Of a stretch of DNA of 33,708 nt, positions 3,101-16,105 are shown in pieces. The DNA is taken from the NCBI GenBank assembly GCA_024638845.1, contig JAHEJN010000029.1:1-33708 (forward strand), in the 5' to 3' direction. The DNA is from Acidimicrobiales bacterium. Its GTDB lineage: Bacteria > Actinomycetota > Acidimicrobiia > Acidimicrobiales > JAHEJN01. Positions within the stretch are counted from its first letter, which is position 1, and each line of letters begins with the position of its first letter. The notes beneath the pieces were generated by a model. The model was not told the origin of the DNA and did no database searches. It saw only the letters and a program-made list of their open reading frames with translations. Made by a program: the position numbers and the translations under genes.

Positions 3101-3111
3101 CCGACGCGCGG

Positions 3112-3137
3112 ATATCCACTACGCGCGTAGTGCTAAT
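3112..3137 (-). promoter_or_regulatory. suf operator copy A, upstream of sufC1
   Basis: On the minus strand this begins ATTAGCACT and contains a perfect 16-bp palindrome, CACTACGCGCGTAGTG (3117-3132). The same ATTAGCACT plus dyad lies before sufD and sufB. It covers the position expected for the -35 of the sufC1 promoter (17-bp spacer to the -10 at 3150), so a bound dimer would block RNA polymerase. The regulator is unknown; an IscR- or SufR-type Fe-S sensor is an inference. Confidence 0.75.
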
Positions 3138-3149
3138 CCCACGAGACCG

Positions 3150-3155
3150 TAGACT
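3150..3155 (+). promoter_or_regulatory. -10 element of the sufC1-sufS-sufU unit
   Basis: TAGACT ends 7 nt before the ATG of sufC1, as in leaderless actinobacterial promoters. No Shine-Dalgarno lies between it and the start. The operator dyad at 3117-3132 overlaps the -35 region. Confidence 0.5.
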
Positions 3156-3162
3156 CGACACC

Positions 3163-3898
<736 letters not shown>

Positions 3899-3915
<17 letters not shown>

Positions 3916-5149
3916 CCACGGCCTCGACGTCGCGGCCATCAAGCGAGACTTCCCTCTCCTGTCGCGTTCGTGCCACGACAATCCCATCGTGTACCTCGAC
4001 TCGGCGGCCACCTCCCAGAAGCCCCGCGTCGTGCTCGACTCGATGACCGAGTACTACGAGACCATCAACGCCAACGTGCACCGCGGTGCCTACCAGATCG
4101 CCGATCTCGCCTCCCGGAAGATGGAGGCGGCCCGGGCCAACCTGGCCGACTTCATCGGCGCTCCCGACACGCGCGAGGTCGTGTTCACCCGCAACGCGAC
4201 CGAGTCGGTCAACCTGGTGGCCTTCACCTGGGGACGGGCCAATCTGCACGACGGCGACGCCATCGTGCTCACCGAGCTCGAGCATCACGCCAACATCGTG
4301 CCGTGGCAGATGCTCGCGGCCGAGCGCGACATCGAGCTGCGCTGGATCCCCGTCGACGCCGAGGGACATCTCGATCTCACCGACCTCGAGCGTCTGCTCG
4401 ACGGCGCCAAGCTGCTGGCGTTCTCGGCCATGTCGAACGTGCTCGGCACGCTCACCCCCGTGCGGTTCCTGTCCGATGCCGCTCATGCCGCCGGCGCCAC
4501 GGTTCTGGTCGACGCCAGCCAGTACGTTCCCCACCTGCCCACCGATGTCGCGGCGCTCGGCTGTGACTTCCTGGTGTTCACCGGTCACAAGATGTGCGGC
4601 CCCACCGGCGTCGGCGTGCTGTGGGCTCGAGCCGAGCTCCTCGAGGCGATGCCACCGTTCAACGGTGGCGGCGCCATGATCCTCAAGGTCACCAAAGAGG
4701 GGTTCACGACCAACGAGATCCCCTGGAAGTTCGAGGCAGGCACACCGGCCATCGCCGAGATCATCGGTCTCGGCGCCGCCGTCGACTACCTGCGAGACAT
4801 CGGTATGGACGCCGTGCGAGCCCACGAGGTCAGCCTCACCGCGTACGCACTCCGCACGCTCACCGAGCGCCACGGCGATCGCATCACCATCCACGGCCCG
4901 AGCGAACCCGCCAGCCGGGGTGGGGTGTTGTCGTTCGAGTTCGGCGACATCCACCCCCACGACGTCTCCCAGGTGCTCGACCAGAAGGGCGTCTGCGTTC
5001 GCGCCGGTCACCACTGCGCCAAGCCGCTCATGGCCATCATGGGCGTCAATGCCACCTCTCGGGCTTCGCTGTACCTCTACAACGACGAGAGCGACGTCGA
5101 TCAGCTGAGCGCCGCCCTCGACGACGCGGCCGATATGTTCGCCATCTGA
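3899..5149 (+). CDS. sufS: cysteine desulfurase SufS
   Basis: A 416-residue type II PLP-dependent cysteine desulfurase that takes sulfur from L-cysteine as a persulfide for cluster assembly. Visible are the N-terminal block YLDSAATSQKP, H130 in ELEHHANIVPW, D205 and Q208 in VDASQYVPH, the PLP lysine K231 in FTGHKMCGP and the catalytic C373 in RAGHHCAKPLM. Length and motifs are typical of group II enzymes (SufS/CsdA), which need an acceptor protein; SufU next door fits. The ATG lies 17 nt inside the end of sufC1, so translation is probably coupled. Confidence 0.96.
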
Positions 5150-7083: not shown

Positions 7084-7347
7084 TCAGTCGATCGACCGGG
7101 CGACCATACCGGCCAGCGATCGGACCGAAGAGAAGTTCGTGAGCGCCACGTCGGCCGGCAGGACGTCGACCCCGAACTGTTCCGACACGGCTTCGAGGAC
7201 CTCCAGGAGGGCGATCGAGTCGATTTCGGCGGCCTGGCCGACGAGAACCGTGTCGGCGTCGATCGGGACATCGCCGGTGGGTCCGGCAATCGACTGCGTG
7301 AGGCGGATCAGCTGGTCGAGAAGGTGCTGACTGGCAGGTTCGTCCAT
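7084..7347 (-). CDS. free-standing acyl carrier protein
   Basis: 87 residues with the helical pattern and acidic character of an acyl or peptidyl carrier protein. The phosphopantetheine site is S44 in AAEIDSIALLEVLEAV, followed by QFGVDVLPADVALTNFSSVRSLAGMV. It differs from a housekeeping AcpP (which has DSLDxVE), so it probably serves a dedicated pathway. It is first in a two-gene unit with the LPLAT-like protein. The ATG at 7347 lies 7 nt behind a TAGCGT -10 (7355-7360), so the mRNA is probably leaderless. A 21-bp inverted repeat (7350-7370) covers this promoter. Confidence 0.82.
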   Translation of the reverse strand: MDEPASQHLLDQLIRLTQSIAGPTGDVPIDADTVLVGQAAEIDSIALLEVLEAVSEQFGVDVLPADVALTNFSSVRSLAGMVARSID

Positions 7348-7349
7348 CG

Positions 7350-7370
7350 GCGCAACGCTAGCGGTTGCGC
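7350..7370. promoter_or_regulatory. inverted repeat over the ACP promoter
   Basis: Two 7-bp arms, GCGCAAC (7350-7356) and GTTGCGC (7364-7370), flank a 7-nt centre that contains the palindrome GCTAGC. The minus-strand -10 TAGCGT (7355-7360) lies inside. A dimeric regulator bound here would control the ACP/acyltransferase unit and perhaps the divergent DUF3291 gene, whose -10 is at 7398. Confidence 0.5.
7355..7360 (-). promoter_or_regulatory. -10 element of the ACP/acyltransferase unit
   Basis: TAGCGT on the minus strand ends 7 nt before the ATG at 7347. This fits the leaderless pattern of the window. Confidence 0.45.
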
Positions 7371-7397
7371 GGTCCAGGGAGCAGTGCGGAGTTCCGG

Positions 7398-7403
7398 TAT
7401 CTT
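7398..7403 (+). promoter_or_regulatory. -10 element of the DUF3291 gene
   Basis: TATCTT ends 7 nt before the GTG at 7411, with no Shine-Dalgarno. It favours 7411 over the in-frame GTG at 7405. Confidence 0.45.
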
Positions 7404-7410
7404 CGTGGCG

Positions 7411-7875
7411 GTGACCCACCAGCTCGCGCAGCTCAACATCGGCGTACTGAATCAGCCGCTCGACCACCGTGAAAGCGCCGAGTTCGTCGCGGCTCTCGAC
7501 CCGATCAACGCCCTGGCCGAGGCAACCCCGGGATTCGTGTGGCGACTCCAGGGCGAAGACGGCTCGTCCTCGAGCTACGTCGAGCTCCCCGACAACGACG
7601 ATCCCCTGCTCATCGTGAACTACTCGATCTGGGCCGACGTCGAGTCGCTACACCACTTCATGTTCAAGAGCGGCCATGCCGTCTACCTGCGACGGCGCCG
7701 CGAGTGGTTTGCGGCGAGCAGCGAGGCGACGTCGGTGTGCTGGTGGATTCCCGCCGGCACCATTCCCGAGCTGGCCGAGGCCTACGCCCGACTCCTTCGG
7801 CTCCGTTCCGATGGCCCCACCGCCGATGCCTTCCCCCACAATCGACCCTTTCCCGCACCGGCAGAACCGGCATGA
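7411..7875 (+). CDS. DUF3291 family protein
   Basis: 154 residues that match the DUF3291 pattern: HQLAQLNIGVLNQPLDH at the N-terminus, DPINALAEATPGFVWRLQ, then the acidic D/S segment, YSIWADVESLHHFMFKSGHAVYLRRRREWF and WWIPAGTIPELAEAYARL. The fold is related to dimeric alpha-beta barrel (ABM-like) proteins; function is unknown in the family. The GTG at 7411 is chosen from the -10 spacing. The next gene overlaps by 4 nt (ATGA), so the two are co-translated. It is transcribed divergently from the ACP gene. Confidence 0.85.
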   Translation: MTHQLAQLNIGVLNQPLDHRESAEFVAALDPINALAEATPGFVWRLQGEDGSSSSYVELPDNDDPLLIVNYSIWADVESLHHFMFKSGHAVYLRRRREWFAASSEATSVCWWIPAGTIPELAEAYARLLRLRSDGPTADAFPHNRPFPAPAEPA

Positions 7876-8402
7876 GGCTTCGCCCGGTCGAGACCCGCGA
7901 CATCGGCTGGCTCGTCGCCATGGCGGGCGATCCGGTGCTGATCGGCGAGCACAACTGGCCGGGATCGGCCGTCGACGCCGACGAGCGAACACGGGAGATG
8001 ACCGCCCGGCTCGACGCCGACGGGATGATCGGTGAATGGAAGGGGACGATGGTCGTCGAGCTCGGCGACGGAACACCCATCGGCGACGTGTCGTGGCGGA
8101 GCGAGAAGTGGGGCCCGTCCGAGAAGAGCCGCTGCCTGGCCTTCGGCATCGCGCTGCTCCCTCAACACCGAGGCAAGGGCCACGGCACCGAGGCGCAACG
8201 GCTGCTGGTCGGCCACCTGTTCTCCCGCACGTCGACGCACCGCATCCAGACCGACACCGCCGTCGACAACCCGGCCGAGCAGCGAGCACTGGAGAAGATC
8301 GGCATGGTGCGAGAAGGCGTGATACGCCAGGCCGAGTACCGCAACGGGCAGTACCACGACCACGTGCTCTACAGCATCTTGCGCTCCGAGTGGAGCGGCT
8401 GA
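7872..8402 (+). CDS. GNAT family N-acetyltransferase
   Basis: 176 residues of the RimJ/RimL-like GNAT branch. It has an N-terminal LRPVETRDIGWL, a core GDVSWRSEKW, the acetyl-CoA pyrophosphate loop at about 104-110 (HRGKGHGTEA, a Q/RxxGxG/A variant) and the late block HRIQTDTAVDNPAEQRALEKIGMVREGVIRQ with Y-R-N-G following. This end pattern is typical of enzymes that acetylate small molecules or protein N-termini; the acceptor is not evident. The ATGA overlap with the DUF3291 gene indicates a two-gene operon. Confidence 0.9.
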   Translation: MRLRPVETRDIGWLVAMAGDPVLIGEHNWPGSAVDADERTREMTARLDADGMIGEWKGTMVVELGDGTPIGDVSWRSEKWGPSEKSRCLAFGIALLPQHRGKGHGTEAQRLLVGHLFSRTSTHRIQTDTAVDNPAEQRALEKIGMVREGVIRQAEYRNGQYHDHVLYSILRSEWSG

Positions 8403-11867: not shown

Positions 11868-12662
11868 TCAGGCGAAGGGGTCGGCGAAAGGATCGTCGGA
11901 CAGCCCACCGAAGGTCACCGTGGTCTCCGATCGTTGGTCGACCCATCCCCCGTACCCTTCCGCTTCGACCTGCTCGACCAGCTCGAGCCCACCCGACGCC
12001 TCGATGCGGCCGTTGGCGAAGATGTGCACGAAGTCGGGCTTCAGCTCGTCGAACAAGCGGCTGAAGTGGGTGATGGCCAGTACGCCGAGACTTCGTTCGG
12101 AGGTCGCTTCCTCGACCCGTCGGCTCACCAAGCGCAACGCGTCGACATCGAGGCCCGAGTCGAGCTCGTCGAGCACGGCGATCTTGGGTTCGAGCACACC
12201 CATCTGCAGCGTCTCGTTGCGCTTCTTCTCGCCACCCGACAGATCGACGTTGAGCGCACGATCGAGAAACGACTCGCCGAAGCCGATCCGAGTGGCTTCG
12301 GTGACCATGGCCGCACCGACCAGCGCGGGGTCGGCGCCACGAGCCACTGCGGCCGATTCGAGCACGTCACGTAGGGCGACGCCCGGCACCTCGATCGGGT
12401 GTTGGAGGGCCAGGAACAGGCCGGCCCTGGCCCGTTCGAACGTCGACAGAGCGGTGAGATCGATCCCATCGAGGGTGATCGAACCGGCGGTGACGGTGAA
12501 CCCCGGGCGACCCATGAGCACCGCCGCAAGGGTGCTCTTGCCCGAGCCATTGGGGCCCATCACGCCGTGGACCTCGCCCGACGCCACCGTCAGGTCGACT
12601 CCCCTGAGGATCTCGGTGCGGCCGACGCTGGCCCACAGGTTCTCGATCTGCAGCGTGGCCAT
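11868..12662 (-). CDS. sufC: Fe-S assembly ATPase SufC, copy 2 (diverged)
   Basis: A 264-residue second SufC. Walker A is GPNGSGKST (36-44), Q87 is in LALQHPIEVPGV, the signature LSGGEKKRNE is at 141-150, Walker B with E166 is in AVLDELDSGLDVDAL and H199 is in AITHFSRLF. All ATPase residues are kept, yet the protein shares only about half its residues with copy 1 by eye, so this is an old paralogue, not a recent duplicate. The C-terminal tail (about 240-264, ending in DDPFADPFA) is acidic and absent from copy 1. It follows sufD and a Rieske ferredoxin, the same order as in the Streptomyces suf operon. ATG 12662 shares one base with the ferredoxin stop; a GTG one codon earlier is possible. Confidence 0.93.
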   Translation of the reverse strand: MATLQIENLWASVGRTEILRGVDLTVASGEVHGVMGPNGSGKSTLAAVLMGRPGFTVTAGSITLDGIDLTALSTFERARAGLFLALQHPIEVPGVALRDVLESAAVARGADPALVGAAMVTEATRIGFGESFLDRALNVDLSGGEKKRNETLQMGVLEPKIAVLDELDSGLDVDALRLVSRRVEEATSERSLGVLAITHFSRLFDELKPDFVHIFANGRIEASGGLELVEQVEAEGYGGWVDQRSETTVTFGGLSDDPFADPFA

Positions 12663-12991
12663 CACGGCATCACCACCCAGATGTCGTTGCCGTCGACCTC
12701 GGTGTCGAACACGGGTACCGGCTGGGTGGCGGGCAGCGTCTCGGGCTCACCGGTGACGAGCGAGAACGTCGCACCGTGCCGAGGGCATTCGAGCGTGCAC
12801 TCGTCGACTTCGACCTCGCCTTCGGACAACGAGTAGTCGGCGTGACTGCACGTGTCGCCGATCGCGTGCACGCGGTCGCCGATGCGCACCAGGGCGATCG
12901 GGGTCTCACCGATGTCGACCCGTTTGGCGGACCCGTCGGCGATCTCGTCGAGCGACGCGACCCGGAATCGTTGACCGAGCTCGGCGGTCAC
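12662..12991 (-). CDS. Rieske-type [2Fe-2S] ferredoxin of the suf operon
   Basis: 109 residues with one Rieske centre: C48-S-H50 and C69-P-R-H72 (CxH-18 residues-CxxH). Its size and the flanking strands (RFRVASLDEIADGS, ALVRIGDRVHAIGDTCSHA) fit the small bacterial ferredoxins annotated as dioxygenase ferredoxin subunits. The same gene sits between sufD and sufC in Streptomyces, so an electron-transfer role in cluster assembly or repair is more likely than an aromatic dioxygenase; this is inference. The GTG start overlaps the sufD stop by 4 nt and its stop shares a base with sufC2. Confidence 0.93.
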   Translation of the reverse strand: MTAELGQRFRVASLDEIADGSAKRVDIGETPIALVRIGDRVHAIGDTCSHADYSLSEGEVEVDECTLECPRHGATFSLVTGEPETLPATQPVPVFDTEVDGNDIWVVMP

Positions 12992-14217
12992 GAGGGTTCT
13001 CCCATGCTGAGACGGCGGCGGATGTCACGTCGGGCTGCGTCGGCCAGGGGTGCCACCGGTGAGGCCGAGATGATGTCGTCGAAGAACCCGGCAACGATCA
13101 GCTGGGTGGCGACATCGTCGGGAACACCCCGGCTGGCCAGGTAGAAGAGCTGGTCTTCGTCGACGGGACCGACCGTGCTGGCGTGGCTGCACTGCACGTC
13201 GTTGTTCTCGATCTCGAGGTTCGGCACCGACTCGGCCCATGCGTCGGGCGACAGCGTGATGTTGCGATTGGTCTGGGTGGCATTGGAACCGCGTGCATCG
13301 GGATGGATGCGGATCATGCCCGTGTACACCGCCAACGAATGATCGTCGACGGCTCCGCTGAACCGGAGGTTCGACGTGGTGTCGCGACCGACGTGATCGA
13401 CGAACACCCTATAGTCACGCGCCTGGACGCCCGAGCCGAAGTAAGCGCCGTTGTAGATGATGGCCGAACCCCTGCCGGCGAGCGTGCAATCGAGACGGTG
13501 GCGGGCGAACCCGCCACCGAGCCCGGCGGTCCACCCGGTGAAGGTGCCTTGATCCGCGACGGTGGCACTGACGCGACCGAGGCAGGTGACGTCGCGGGTG
13601 AGGTCCTGGAGCTCGACCAGGGTCACGCGGGCGGCCGACCCGGCGCGAACCTCGATCCGGGGGACGCACAACGCCGTGACGTCGGCCGACTGGTGCACGA
13701 CGACGACGGTGACCTCGGAGTCGGAGTCGGCCTCGACGATCACATGCGGGAACGACGAGCCGGCGGTGGTGACCAGATTGGAGATCACGACCGGCTGGGC
13801 CACGGCCGCGCCGGCCGCGACGGACACGACCGTGGGCTGCGGCGCCAGTGCCGCTGCCAGAAGACTGAATGCTGCGACCGGAAGGTCGCCGAGCTGGTTG
13901 GTCGCGGCGTCGGCGATGGCGACCGGGTCGGACGCATCGGTGTGCACGACGAAGCCGTCGACGATCGCGACGCGGGCCGAGGCCTCGACCGCATCGGCCA
14001 GATCGACCGGCCTCACCGGCCCCGGGGCGGCCACGGGTGGGTAGGTGGTCACGTCGAGCTTGCCGATCGGGCTGTACCGCCACTCCTCGGCCTCGGTGGT
14101 GGGCCACGGCGTCTCGGCCAGCGCGGCGGCCGCAGCGTGACGCCGTTCGGTGAGCCCGGCACTGCCGGGCAGCGCGTCGATGGTCTCGTTCGTGAAGGGG
14201 AGGGGGGTCAGCGTCAT
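12988..14217 (-). CDS. sufD: Fe-S assembly scaffold protein SufD
   Basis: 409 residues. An N-terminal helical part (ALPGSAGLTERRHAAAAALA, TEAEEWRYSPIGKLD) is followed by the beta-helix core. The C-terminal block is typical of SufB/SufD: RGSNATQTNRNITL, ENNDVQCSHASTVGPVDEDQLFYLASRGV and a final helix. SufD pairs with SufB over a SufC dimer; the Cys-x-His in QCSHAST is the region that with SufB forms the nascent cluster site. It starts a unit sufD-fdx-sufC2 and is preceded by operator copy B. No Shine-Dalgarno is evident before the ATG. Confidence 0.93.
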   Translation of the reverse strand: MTLTPLPFTNETIDALPGSAGLTERRHAAAAALAETPWPTTEAEEWRYSPIGKLDVTTYPPVAAPGPVRPVDLADAVEASARVAIVDGFVVHTDASDPVAIADAATNQLGDLPVAAFSLLAAALAPQPTVVSVAAGAAVAQPVVISNLVTTAGSSFPHVIVEADSDSEVTVVVVHQSADVTALCVPRIEVRAGSAARVTLVELQDLTRDVTCLGRVSATVADQGTFTGWTAGLGGGFARHRLDCTLAGRGSAIIYNGAYFGSGVQARDYRVFVDHVGRDTTSNLRFSGAVDDHSLAVYTGMIRIHPDARGSNATQTNRNITLSPDAWAESVPNLEIENNDVQCSHASTVGPVDEDQLFYLASRGVPDDVATQLIVAGFFDDIISASPVAPLADAARRDIRRRLSMGEPS

Positions 14218-14236
14218 GCTCTACGTCACCGGTCGA

Positions 14237-14262
14237 ATTAGCACTGTCAGCGTAGTGACAAT
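14237..14262 (+). promoter_or_regulatory. suf operator copy B, upstream of sufD
   Basis: Starts with the invariant ATTAGCACT (14237-14245) and includes the 16-nt dyad CACTGTCAGCGTAGTG (14242-14257; 5 of 8 arm pairs match). It ends 19 nt from the sufD start and runs opposite to the gene, exactly as copies A and C do. The 63-nt gap 14218-14280 holds nothing else. Confidence 0.75.
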
Positions 14263-14280
14263 TCCCGGCATCGCCTCAGG

Positions 14281-14637
14281 TCAACGCCGCTTCTTCCGGC
14301 CGAACAACCGCCTGAAGCGGCCACCTCCCTGGTTGCGGTCGGCCTCGACCTCGGCCTGGACCCGCGGCACCGCCGCGTTGATGATGTCCTCGGCTTCGTC
14401 GAGCAGGGAGGCGATCGAGTCGTCCTCGCCGAGCGACGCGGGTTCGGGTGGAGTGGCTGGGGTGACCAGCGTGCCGTGATTCCAGTTCACGTCGACCATG
14501 CGCTTCGTGTACTTCGGGCAGTCGTCGGGACAACGCCACGGCGCCTCGGGCGCGAGATCGAGGTCGCACTTGCGCACGGTGTCACCGTTCGGGTACGTCC
14601 GGCTCTCGAAGTACTTGCAGTCCTGTCGCATCGGCAT
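14281..14637 (-). CDS. small four-cysteine protein between sufB and sufD
   Basis: 118 residues, not recognised. The N-terminal 45 residues carry four cysteines, C7, C24, C36 and C40, in CKYFESRTYP, VRKCDLDLAP and WRCPDDCPKY. Their spacing (16, 11 and 3 residues between) could bind zinc or an Fe-S cluster. A linker (about 50-70) rich in Pro and Thr, an acidic helix (EDDSIASLLDEAEDIINAAV) and a strongly basic end (RFRRLFGRKKRR) follow. The ATG is 4 nt behind the sufB stop, so it is co-transcribed with sufB under operator C. The position suggests an accessory role in cluster assembly (a carrier, a metallochaperone or a scaffold-binding protein), which is inference only. Confidence 0.85.
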   Translation of the reverse strand: MPMRQDCKYFESRTYPNGDTVRKCDLDLAPEAPWRCPDDCPKYTKRMVDVNWNHGTLVTPATPPEPASLGEDDSIASLLDEAEDIINAAVPRVQAEVEADRNQGGGRFRRLFGRKKRR

Positions 14638-14641
14638 GAGC

Positions 14642-16045
14642 TCAGCCTACCGAGCCCTCCATCTGGAGCTCGATCAGGCGGCTCCATTCGACTGCGTACT
14701 CCATGGGCAGGGTGCGGGTGACCGGTTCGATGAACCCGTTCACCACCATGCCCATGGCCTGCTCCTCGGTGAGGCCCCGGCTCATCAGGTAGAACAGCTG
14801 CTCGTCGGCCACCTTCGACACGGTGGCCTCGTGACCGATTACCGCATCCTTGCTGCCGACCTCCATGTAGGGGTAGGTGTCGGAGATGGAGTCCTCGTCG
14901 AGGATGAGGGCGTCGCACTGCACGTGGCTCTTGCAGTTCTCGGCGCCTTCCTCGACCCGCACCAGGCCGCGGTAGCTGGTACGACCGCCGTCCTTGGAGA
15001 TCGACTTCGACACGATCTTCGAACTGGTCTCGGGCGCCGCGTGCACCATCTTGGCGCCGGCGTCCTGGTGCTGGCCGGCGCCGGCGTAGGCCACCGACAG
15101 CACTTCACCCGAGGCCTTCGGGCCGACCATGACCACGCCCGGGTACTTCATGGTGAGGCGGCTGCCGATGTTGCCGTCGATCCACTCCATGTGGCCCTCG
15201 GCCTCGACGCGGGCTCGCTTGGTGACCAGGTTGAACACGTTGTTCGACCAGTTCTGGATGGTGGTGTAGGTGACGCGAGCCCCTTCGCCCACGAGGATCT
15301 CGACCACGGCCGAATGCAGCGAGTCGGTGCTGTAGACCGGCGCCGAGCAGCCCTCGATGTAGTGCACCTTCGAGCCCTCGTCGGCGATGATGAGCGTGCG
15401 CTCGAACTGGCCCATGTTCTCGGCGTTGATCCGGAAATAGGCCTGCAGCGGCATCTCGACCTCGACGCCGGGCGGCACGTAGATGAACGAGCCACCCGAC
15501 CACACCGCCGAGTTGAGGGCGGAGAACTTGTTGTCGTTGGGCGGGATCACCTTGCCGAAGTACTTCTTGACGATCTCCGGATGCTCGCGCAGTGCGGTGT
15601 CCATGTCGGCGAAGATGACGCCCTGGGCCTCGAGATCGTCGCGGTTCTTGTGGTACACGACCTCGGACTCGTACTGGGCGGTGACGCCGGCCAGGTACTT
15701 GCGCTCGGCCTCGGGTATGCCCAGCTTCTCGTAGGTGTTCTTGATGCTCTCGGGAACGTCGTCCCAGTCGTCGACGGTCCCCTGGGTGGGCTTGATGTAG
15801 TAGTAGATGTCGTCGAGGTAGATCTCCGACATGTCGCCACCCCACGTGGGCATGGGACGCTTCTCGAAGCGGCGGTAGGACTTCAGTCGGAAGTCGAGCA
15901 TCCAGTCGGGCTCACCCTTGAGCCACGACATCTCCCGGATGATGTCCTCGTTCAGGCCCTTCTTGGGCTTGAAGACGTAGTCTTCCTCGTCGCTCCATCC
16001 CAGCTTGTACTTGCTGAGATCGACACCGATTTCGGCGGTACTCAT
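14642..16045 (-). CDS. sufB: Fe-S assembly scaffold protein SufB
   Basis: A 467-residue SufB. Strongly conserved blocks include [83 protein letters not shown] and the C-terminal core [18 protein letters not shown] with its conserved Cys. [22 protein letters not shown] then supplies the His/Glu region used for cluster building at the SufB-SufD interface. Length matches the family. It starts a unit with the four-cysteine protein. The leader has GGAGCTGA upstream of the ATG, and operator copy C lies 30 nt before the start. Confidence 0.97.
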
Positions 16046-16074
16046 GGCGGAATCAGCTCCAGGGGGGCTTGCGA

Positions 16075-16101
16075 ATTAGCACTATCGCCATAGTAACAAA
16101 T
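16075..16101 (+). promoter_or_regulatory. suf operator copy C, upstream of sufB
   Basis: Starts with ATTAGCACT (16075-16083). The dyad is at 16080-16095 (CACTATCGCCATAGTA; inner arms ACTAT and ATAGT match). The arm base differs from copy A on both sides together (ACTAC/GTAGT against ACTAT/ATAGT), as expected of a true two-fold site. It lies between the gamma-carbonic anhydrase stop and sufB. Confidence 0.75.
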
Positions 16102-16105
16102 CCGA

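Follow-up and report, generated by a model that had tools for sequence, protein, structure and literature searches.

A four-cysteine protein family of Acidimicrobiia, tied to the suf locus in one order but present and retained independently of SufBCD

A gene encoding a four-cysteine protein, called X in what follows, is positionally tied to the suf genes in one order of Acidimicrobiia, but its presence and its retention are independent of SufBCD. It lies between sufB and sufD in a stretch of 33,708 nt (the window, i.e. the whole stretch of DNA that was analysed) and, judging from sequence searches, it belongs to a family that is previously undescribed and confined to the class. We tentatively read X as an Acidimicrobiia-specific Cys4 adaptor, probably a zinc protein, that is carried along in the suf locus and is not a dedicated Suf component. 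We favour this reading, in descending order of the probability left to the others, over a Suf accessory, a helper of Fe-S or sulfur transfer, and a sensor-regulator.

The gene order on the minus strand of the window is sufB, X, sufD, a Rieske-type gene and sufC, and the features are as follows.

3109-3140, third copy of the suf operator; a second sufC-like gene and then sufS begin shortly after it
11868..12665, minus strand, sufC of the sufD unit
12662..12991, minus strand, gene for a Rieske-type [2Fe-2S] protein, in the sufD unit, named from sequence motifs
12988..14217, minus strand, sufD, downstream of X
14234..14265, minus strand, suf operator between X and sufD, 17 nt before sufD, an 81% identical copy of the palindrome on the sufB side
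14281..14637, minus strand, X, 118-aa four-cysteine protein of an Acidimicrobiia-specific family, ATG start, pN/pS 0.15
14642..16045, minus strand, sufB, upstream of X
16072..16103, minus strand, suf operator of the sufB-X unit, a 32-nt palindrome 27 nt before sufB

An earlier note on this DNA had proposed the frame 14281..14637 without giving a strand, placed it 4 nt behind sufB under an operator called C, and drawn attention to C7, C24, C36 and C40 and to the stretch WRCPDDCPKY. All of this held: the sufB stop is at 14642, X starts 4 nt beyond it, and the product has the four cysteines and the stretch as described. Operator C, the palindrome at 16072-16103, is real, with copies before sufD and at 3109. 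The consensus is GGaATTtnTaCTAccgcggTAGtAnaAATtCC, a 32-nt palindrome, and 100 shuffles gave zero chance matches to the pattern; with a matrix built from such sites, almost every accepted site scored 24-47, and shuffled sequence did not exceed 5. Since one of the operators lies between X and sufD, sufD forms a unit of its own, and X is part of the sufB unit, from whose operator it would, by its position, be expressed in the window genome. In the window X thus lies in the sufB unit, but at the loci scanned with the matrix no X gene has a suf operator directly upstream of itself: where genes are inserted between sufB and X (L011, L021, L022, L045, L067, L068 and others), the operator is found beyond X, before sufD, or at sufB only.

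The palindrome, in the form GGaATT..TaCTA....TAG.A..AATtCC, is found across many lineages of the order, at dozens of loci, ahead of sufB, sufD and a third suf unit. In the window this third unit (3145-5149) starts, under its operator, with an additional sufC-like ABC ATPase gene, which is not the sufC of 11868-12665, and continues with a sufS-like gene, both identified from their translations. The window genome has three Rrf2-family genes, all of them on other contigs.

X is a genuine protein-coding gene. A chance ORF is ruled out by conservation, because a tblastn search of genome_contigs returned 302 candidate stretches encoding relatives, the median pN/pS of codons 1-60, measured against 80 relatives, is about 0.15, and the four cysteines are invariant in 74 members. 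Cargo of a mobile element was also considered and is ruled out by the restriction to one class, together with the zero matches to X in plasmids and phages. The titles of the best 80 of the 302 relatives are nearly all Acidimicrobiia or unclassified Actinomycetota. A profile of X matched 273 of 394 sampled Acidimicrobiia genomes and, in a phylum-wide sample, 47 of 396; all 47 belong to Acidimicrobiia, and the other genomes of that sample, about 336, gave no match, so that the lineage specificity suspected earlier is borne out. In the 394-genome table, the window's order (order being used here for the order label in the genome search database) accounts for 231 matches among 239 genomes and the remainder of the class for 42 among 155; most genomes are MAGs, and single absences may be assembly gaps (G140, G250 and G300 are also without SufBD hits).

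Searches of Pfam, NCBIfam, PHROGs and PDB profiles with the window protein and with the family alignments yielded zero accepted matches, the PDB profile matches on zinc-finger peptides covering the CP stretch only, near chance level. X and its relatives form a new family without a match in these libraries, and our literature search brought up no description of a gene lying between sufB and sufD in Acidimicrobiia. SufA, SufE, SufU, SufT and SufR are encoded with sufB and carry cysteine ligands. X resembles them in its cysteines and in keeping company with sufB, but it has no similarity to known Suf families in Pfam or NCBIfam, in agreement with the earlier remark that no known Suf component looks like it, and its presence does not track SufBCD. 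Three genomes of the order (G014, G225 and G354) match by way of a shorter paralogue only; the first of these we take to be Acidimicrobium ferrooxidans, which would put X itself out of reach of a list compiled from the proteins of that species. Such a list exists for the conserved signature proteins of Acidimicrobiia, drawn from Acidimicrobium ferrooxidans proteins (PMC5962788), which are, as X is, class-restricted and without assigned function.

Of the 80 closest loci, 75 have X no more than 1.5 kb from sufB or sufD; since this set, being made of the closest relatives, is biased, a broader sample with a spread of families was used, in which 57 of 66 genomes of the order have a SufB/SufD core no more than 2.2 kb from X. 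The other nine are unlinked, among them G181, G355 and G059, which are contig-limited or without explanation. Outside the order, the architecture of X is unchanged, and it is near SufB/SufD in 0 of 12 genomes; neither sufB nor sufD was found beside it in 19 loci fetched, some with short flanks, nor was a conserved neighbour other than suf when one was sought. X is therefore not encoded with suf wherever it is present, and tracking with sufB, which the earlier note had asked to be checked, is seen for the most part within the order and not beyond it. The adjacency to sufB has a control: where flanking sequence is available, X adjoins sufB in 44 of 60 loci, and a gamma-carbonic-anhydrase-like gene (gCA) on the other side of sufB, unrelated to X, equals this with 41 of 56. 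The true partners sufD, the Rieske-type gene and sufC, in contrast, are held together in 52-53 of 53 loci. With synteny at these loci generally so high, adjacency of X and sufB is by itself weak evidence.

One reading that must be weighed against these counts is that X is a lineage-specific Suf accessory made with SufB, either a carrier of a metal or Fe-S cluster or a factor binding the SufBCD scaffold. The 4-nt gap between sufB and X in the window, with the sufB operator ahead of both, the frequent adjoining of sufB/sufD within the order and the invariant cysteines would all be expected of such a protein. They have to be reconciled, however, with the lack of linkage in other orders, with an adjacency no higher than that of gCA, with the missing operator where X is separated from sufB, and with the many Acidimicrobiia genomes that have SufB and SufD and carry no X. 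So weakened, this reading is still living, and we hold it to be unlikely.

A further point against it is provided by 11 genomes with a different type of SufBD elsewhere in the genome, all 11 of which keep X. SufBCD appears to be foreign there, as read from the different core length of SufB and from gene order, not from a tree. The replacement set, in the loci that were read, consists of SufB-SufC-SufD(-SufT), without X. In 10 of the 11, X sits amid the genes of the old site (flavR-gCA upstream, or PCD, SufU and SufS downstream), from which the native sufB and sufD-Rieske-sufC are gone, i.e. X stays put and does not move to the new suf locus. In G027, one of these 10, a relict sufB precedes an intact X; it has lost about 140 N-terminal residues, and its identity is 45%, against 79-90% for intact copies. 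The claim that X is specific to sufB or tracks it is thus not supported, X being kept after SufBCD is lost or replaced, absent from many genomes with SufB and SufD, and devoid of an operator of its own. These genomes amount to a natural experiment, in which the suf neighbourhood is separated from suf function; they warn against naming a gene after its operon, and they direct the search to a partner that survives the SufBCD swap.

Several details of these loci may be added. The swap of native SufB-X-SufD-Rieske-SufC for SufBCD(-SufT) at another site is repeated (L186-L190, L283-L288), with X, SufU and SufS left behind. In L283, a relict sufB with ~140 N-terminal residues missing stands behind a ferredoxin-like ORF, and a sufC-like gene is degraded as well (7155-8144 and 14259-14909). 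Both SufBCD sets occur together in G081, G215, G163, G252 and G298.

Another possibility is that X is a general helper in Fe-S or sulfur transfer, whose partner would be SufS/SufU or any SufBCD that the genome has, so that linkage would be unneeded. This would account for a Cys4 motif and for an X still beside native SufU/SufS in several replaced genomes (L006, L053, L070, L071, L285, L287). It accounts poorly for loci of the marine type, where sufB-X is followed by phoH/ybeY with no SufU nearby, for the absence of any suf gene near X outside the order, and for genomes with SufB and SufD that live without X; we consider it quite improbable.

The protein itself can be divided into three parts.

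14500..14637, minus strand, N-terminal module, residues 1-46, C7-x16-C24-x11-C36-x3-C40, a probable single metal site
14326..14421, minus strand, acidic amphipathic helix, residues 73-104, from an AlphaFold2 helix and orthologue charge
14284..14325, minus strand, basic tail, residues 105-118, ending in RFRRLFGRKKRR, basic in nearly all orthologues

Across 74 diverse members (alignment A3, paralogues included), the only invariant positions are C7, C24, P33, C36, P37 and C40, so that all four cysteines, of the ligand type, are invariant, a check that the earlier note had called for. Because of this invariance they are likely to form a metal site, for which an Fe-S cluster fits as well as zinc does. 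The spacing C-x16-C-x11-C-x3-C is kept in all complete members but one, which has x15; the other exceptions among 161 sequences are shortened or frameshifted frames. Residues 1-55 scarcely vary among 26 close relatives, and the median identity to the window in the same loci is 76% for X, compared with 86% for SufB, 61% for SufC and 42% for SufD. That an acidic helix is succeeded by a basic tail, also proposed before, is upheld by median net charges of 0 (residues 1-60), -10 (61-100) and +9 (tail) over 137 orthologue sequences, and by the predicted helix at 73-104, with a pLDDT of about 92 at residues 81-100. The tail, often RR-[F/L/Y]-x-RR, varies in length and sequence. Taken whole, the two AlphaFold2 models are of poor quality, with a mean pLDDT of 65 and 63, and a Foldseek search with them gave no fold match.

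A Cys4 module followed by a basic tail could also be imagined as an Fe-S or redox sensor, with the tail binding DNA or RNA, that acts as a feedback regulator within the sufB unit; the co-transcription with sufB suggested by spacing and operator in the window would suit such a role. The sequence of the tail, however, is not conserved, X matches no regulator family in Pfam or NCBIfam, and in other orders it is unlinked to suf, all of which leaves this idea very doubtful.

Short four-cysteine modules joined to flexible charged segments are found in small adaptors of the zinc-ribbon and zinc-knuckle kind, which X resembles in this respect, but its C-x16-C-x11-C-x3-C pattern reaches the cut-off of no Pfam or NCBIfam model, and no fold match links the two. 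A further comparison is with DUF5787 (PF19100), whose C-terminal 42 residues are weakly matched by the Cys module in 20 of the 74 members of alignment A3. In the three matches inspected, module residues 2-45 align with the C-terminal end of the profile at about 11-12 bits, below the Pfam gathering cut-off of 25, and homology is not established; DUF5787 is moreover a family of 278 positions, unlike the 118-aa X.

The tentatively favoured reading, a Cys4 adaptor carried in the suf locus, would have X as a small cytosolic protein specific to Acidimicrobiia. Its first 46 residues would be folded by the four cysteines about a single structural metal, with zinc the likeliest, into a knob whose strongly conserved surface would dock on a conserved cellular partner. 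A proline-rich linker would lead to the predicted acidic amphipathic helix, and the basic, often aromatic tail may bind a polyanion, e.g. nucleic acid or a membrane lipid. In one order X would have become lodged between sufB and sufD, where it is found. We do not regard it as a dedicated Suf part because it is unlinked outside the order, kept after the SufBCD swap, missing in genomes with SufB and SufD, and without its own operator. The adaptor reading is further favoured by cysteines that are invariant class-wide and in the short paralogue, by a constraint on X above that on SufC and SufD in the same loci, by the charge architecture, and by the existence of a paralogue with the Cys module alone, away from suf. 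Against it, a sufB/sufD neighbourhood stable through many rearrangements (the 57 of 66 genomes) could reflect functional coupling, the frequent position beside SufU/SufS in replaced genomes may indicate a sulfur-transfer link, and the models are poor and without a fold match. A bolder version, which we think rather unlikely, would make X a class-specific core cofactor, putatively carrying zinc or a cluster and confined to Acidimicrobiia, for an essential machine such as that of transcription, translation or Fe-S supply, the strongly conserved 46-residue knob fitting a partner site unique to the class. With X, a large and mostly uncultured bacterial class gains an undescribed protein family as a marker, and X is under stronger constraint than the adjoining SufC or SufD.

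The short paralogues, of 60-73 aa, have the same four-Cys module without helix and tail, and are encoded elsewhere in the genome, away from suf (L120-L125, L136-L138, L216-L229). Their neighbours, named from translations, include hemQ, glnD and NUDIX genes, three of the loci being near hemQ.
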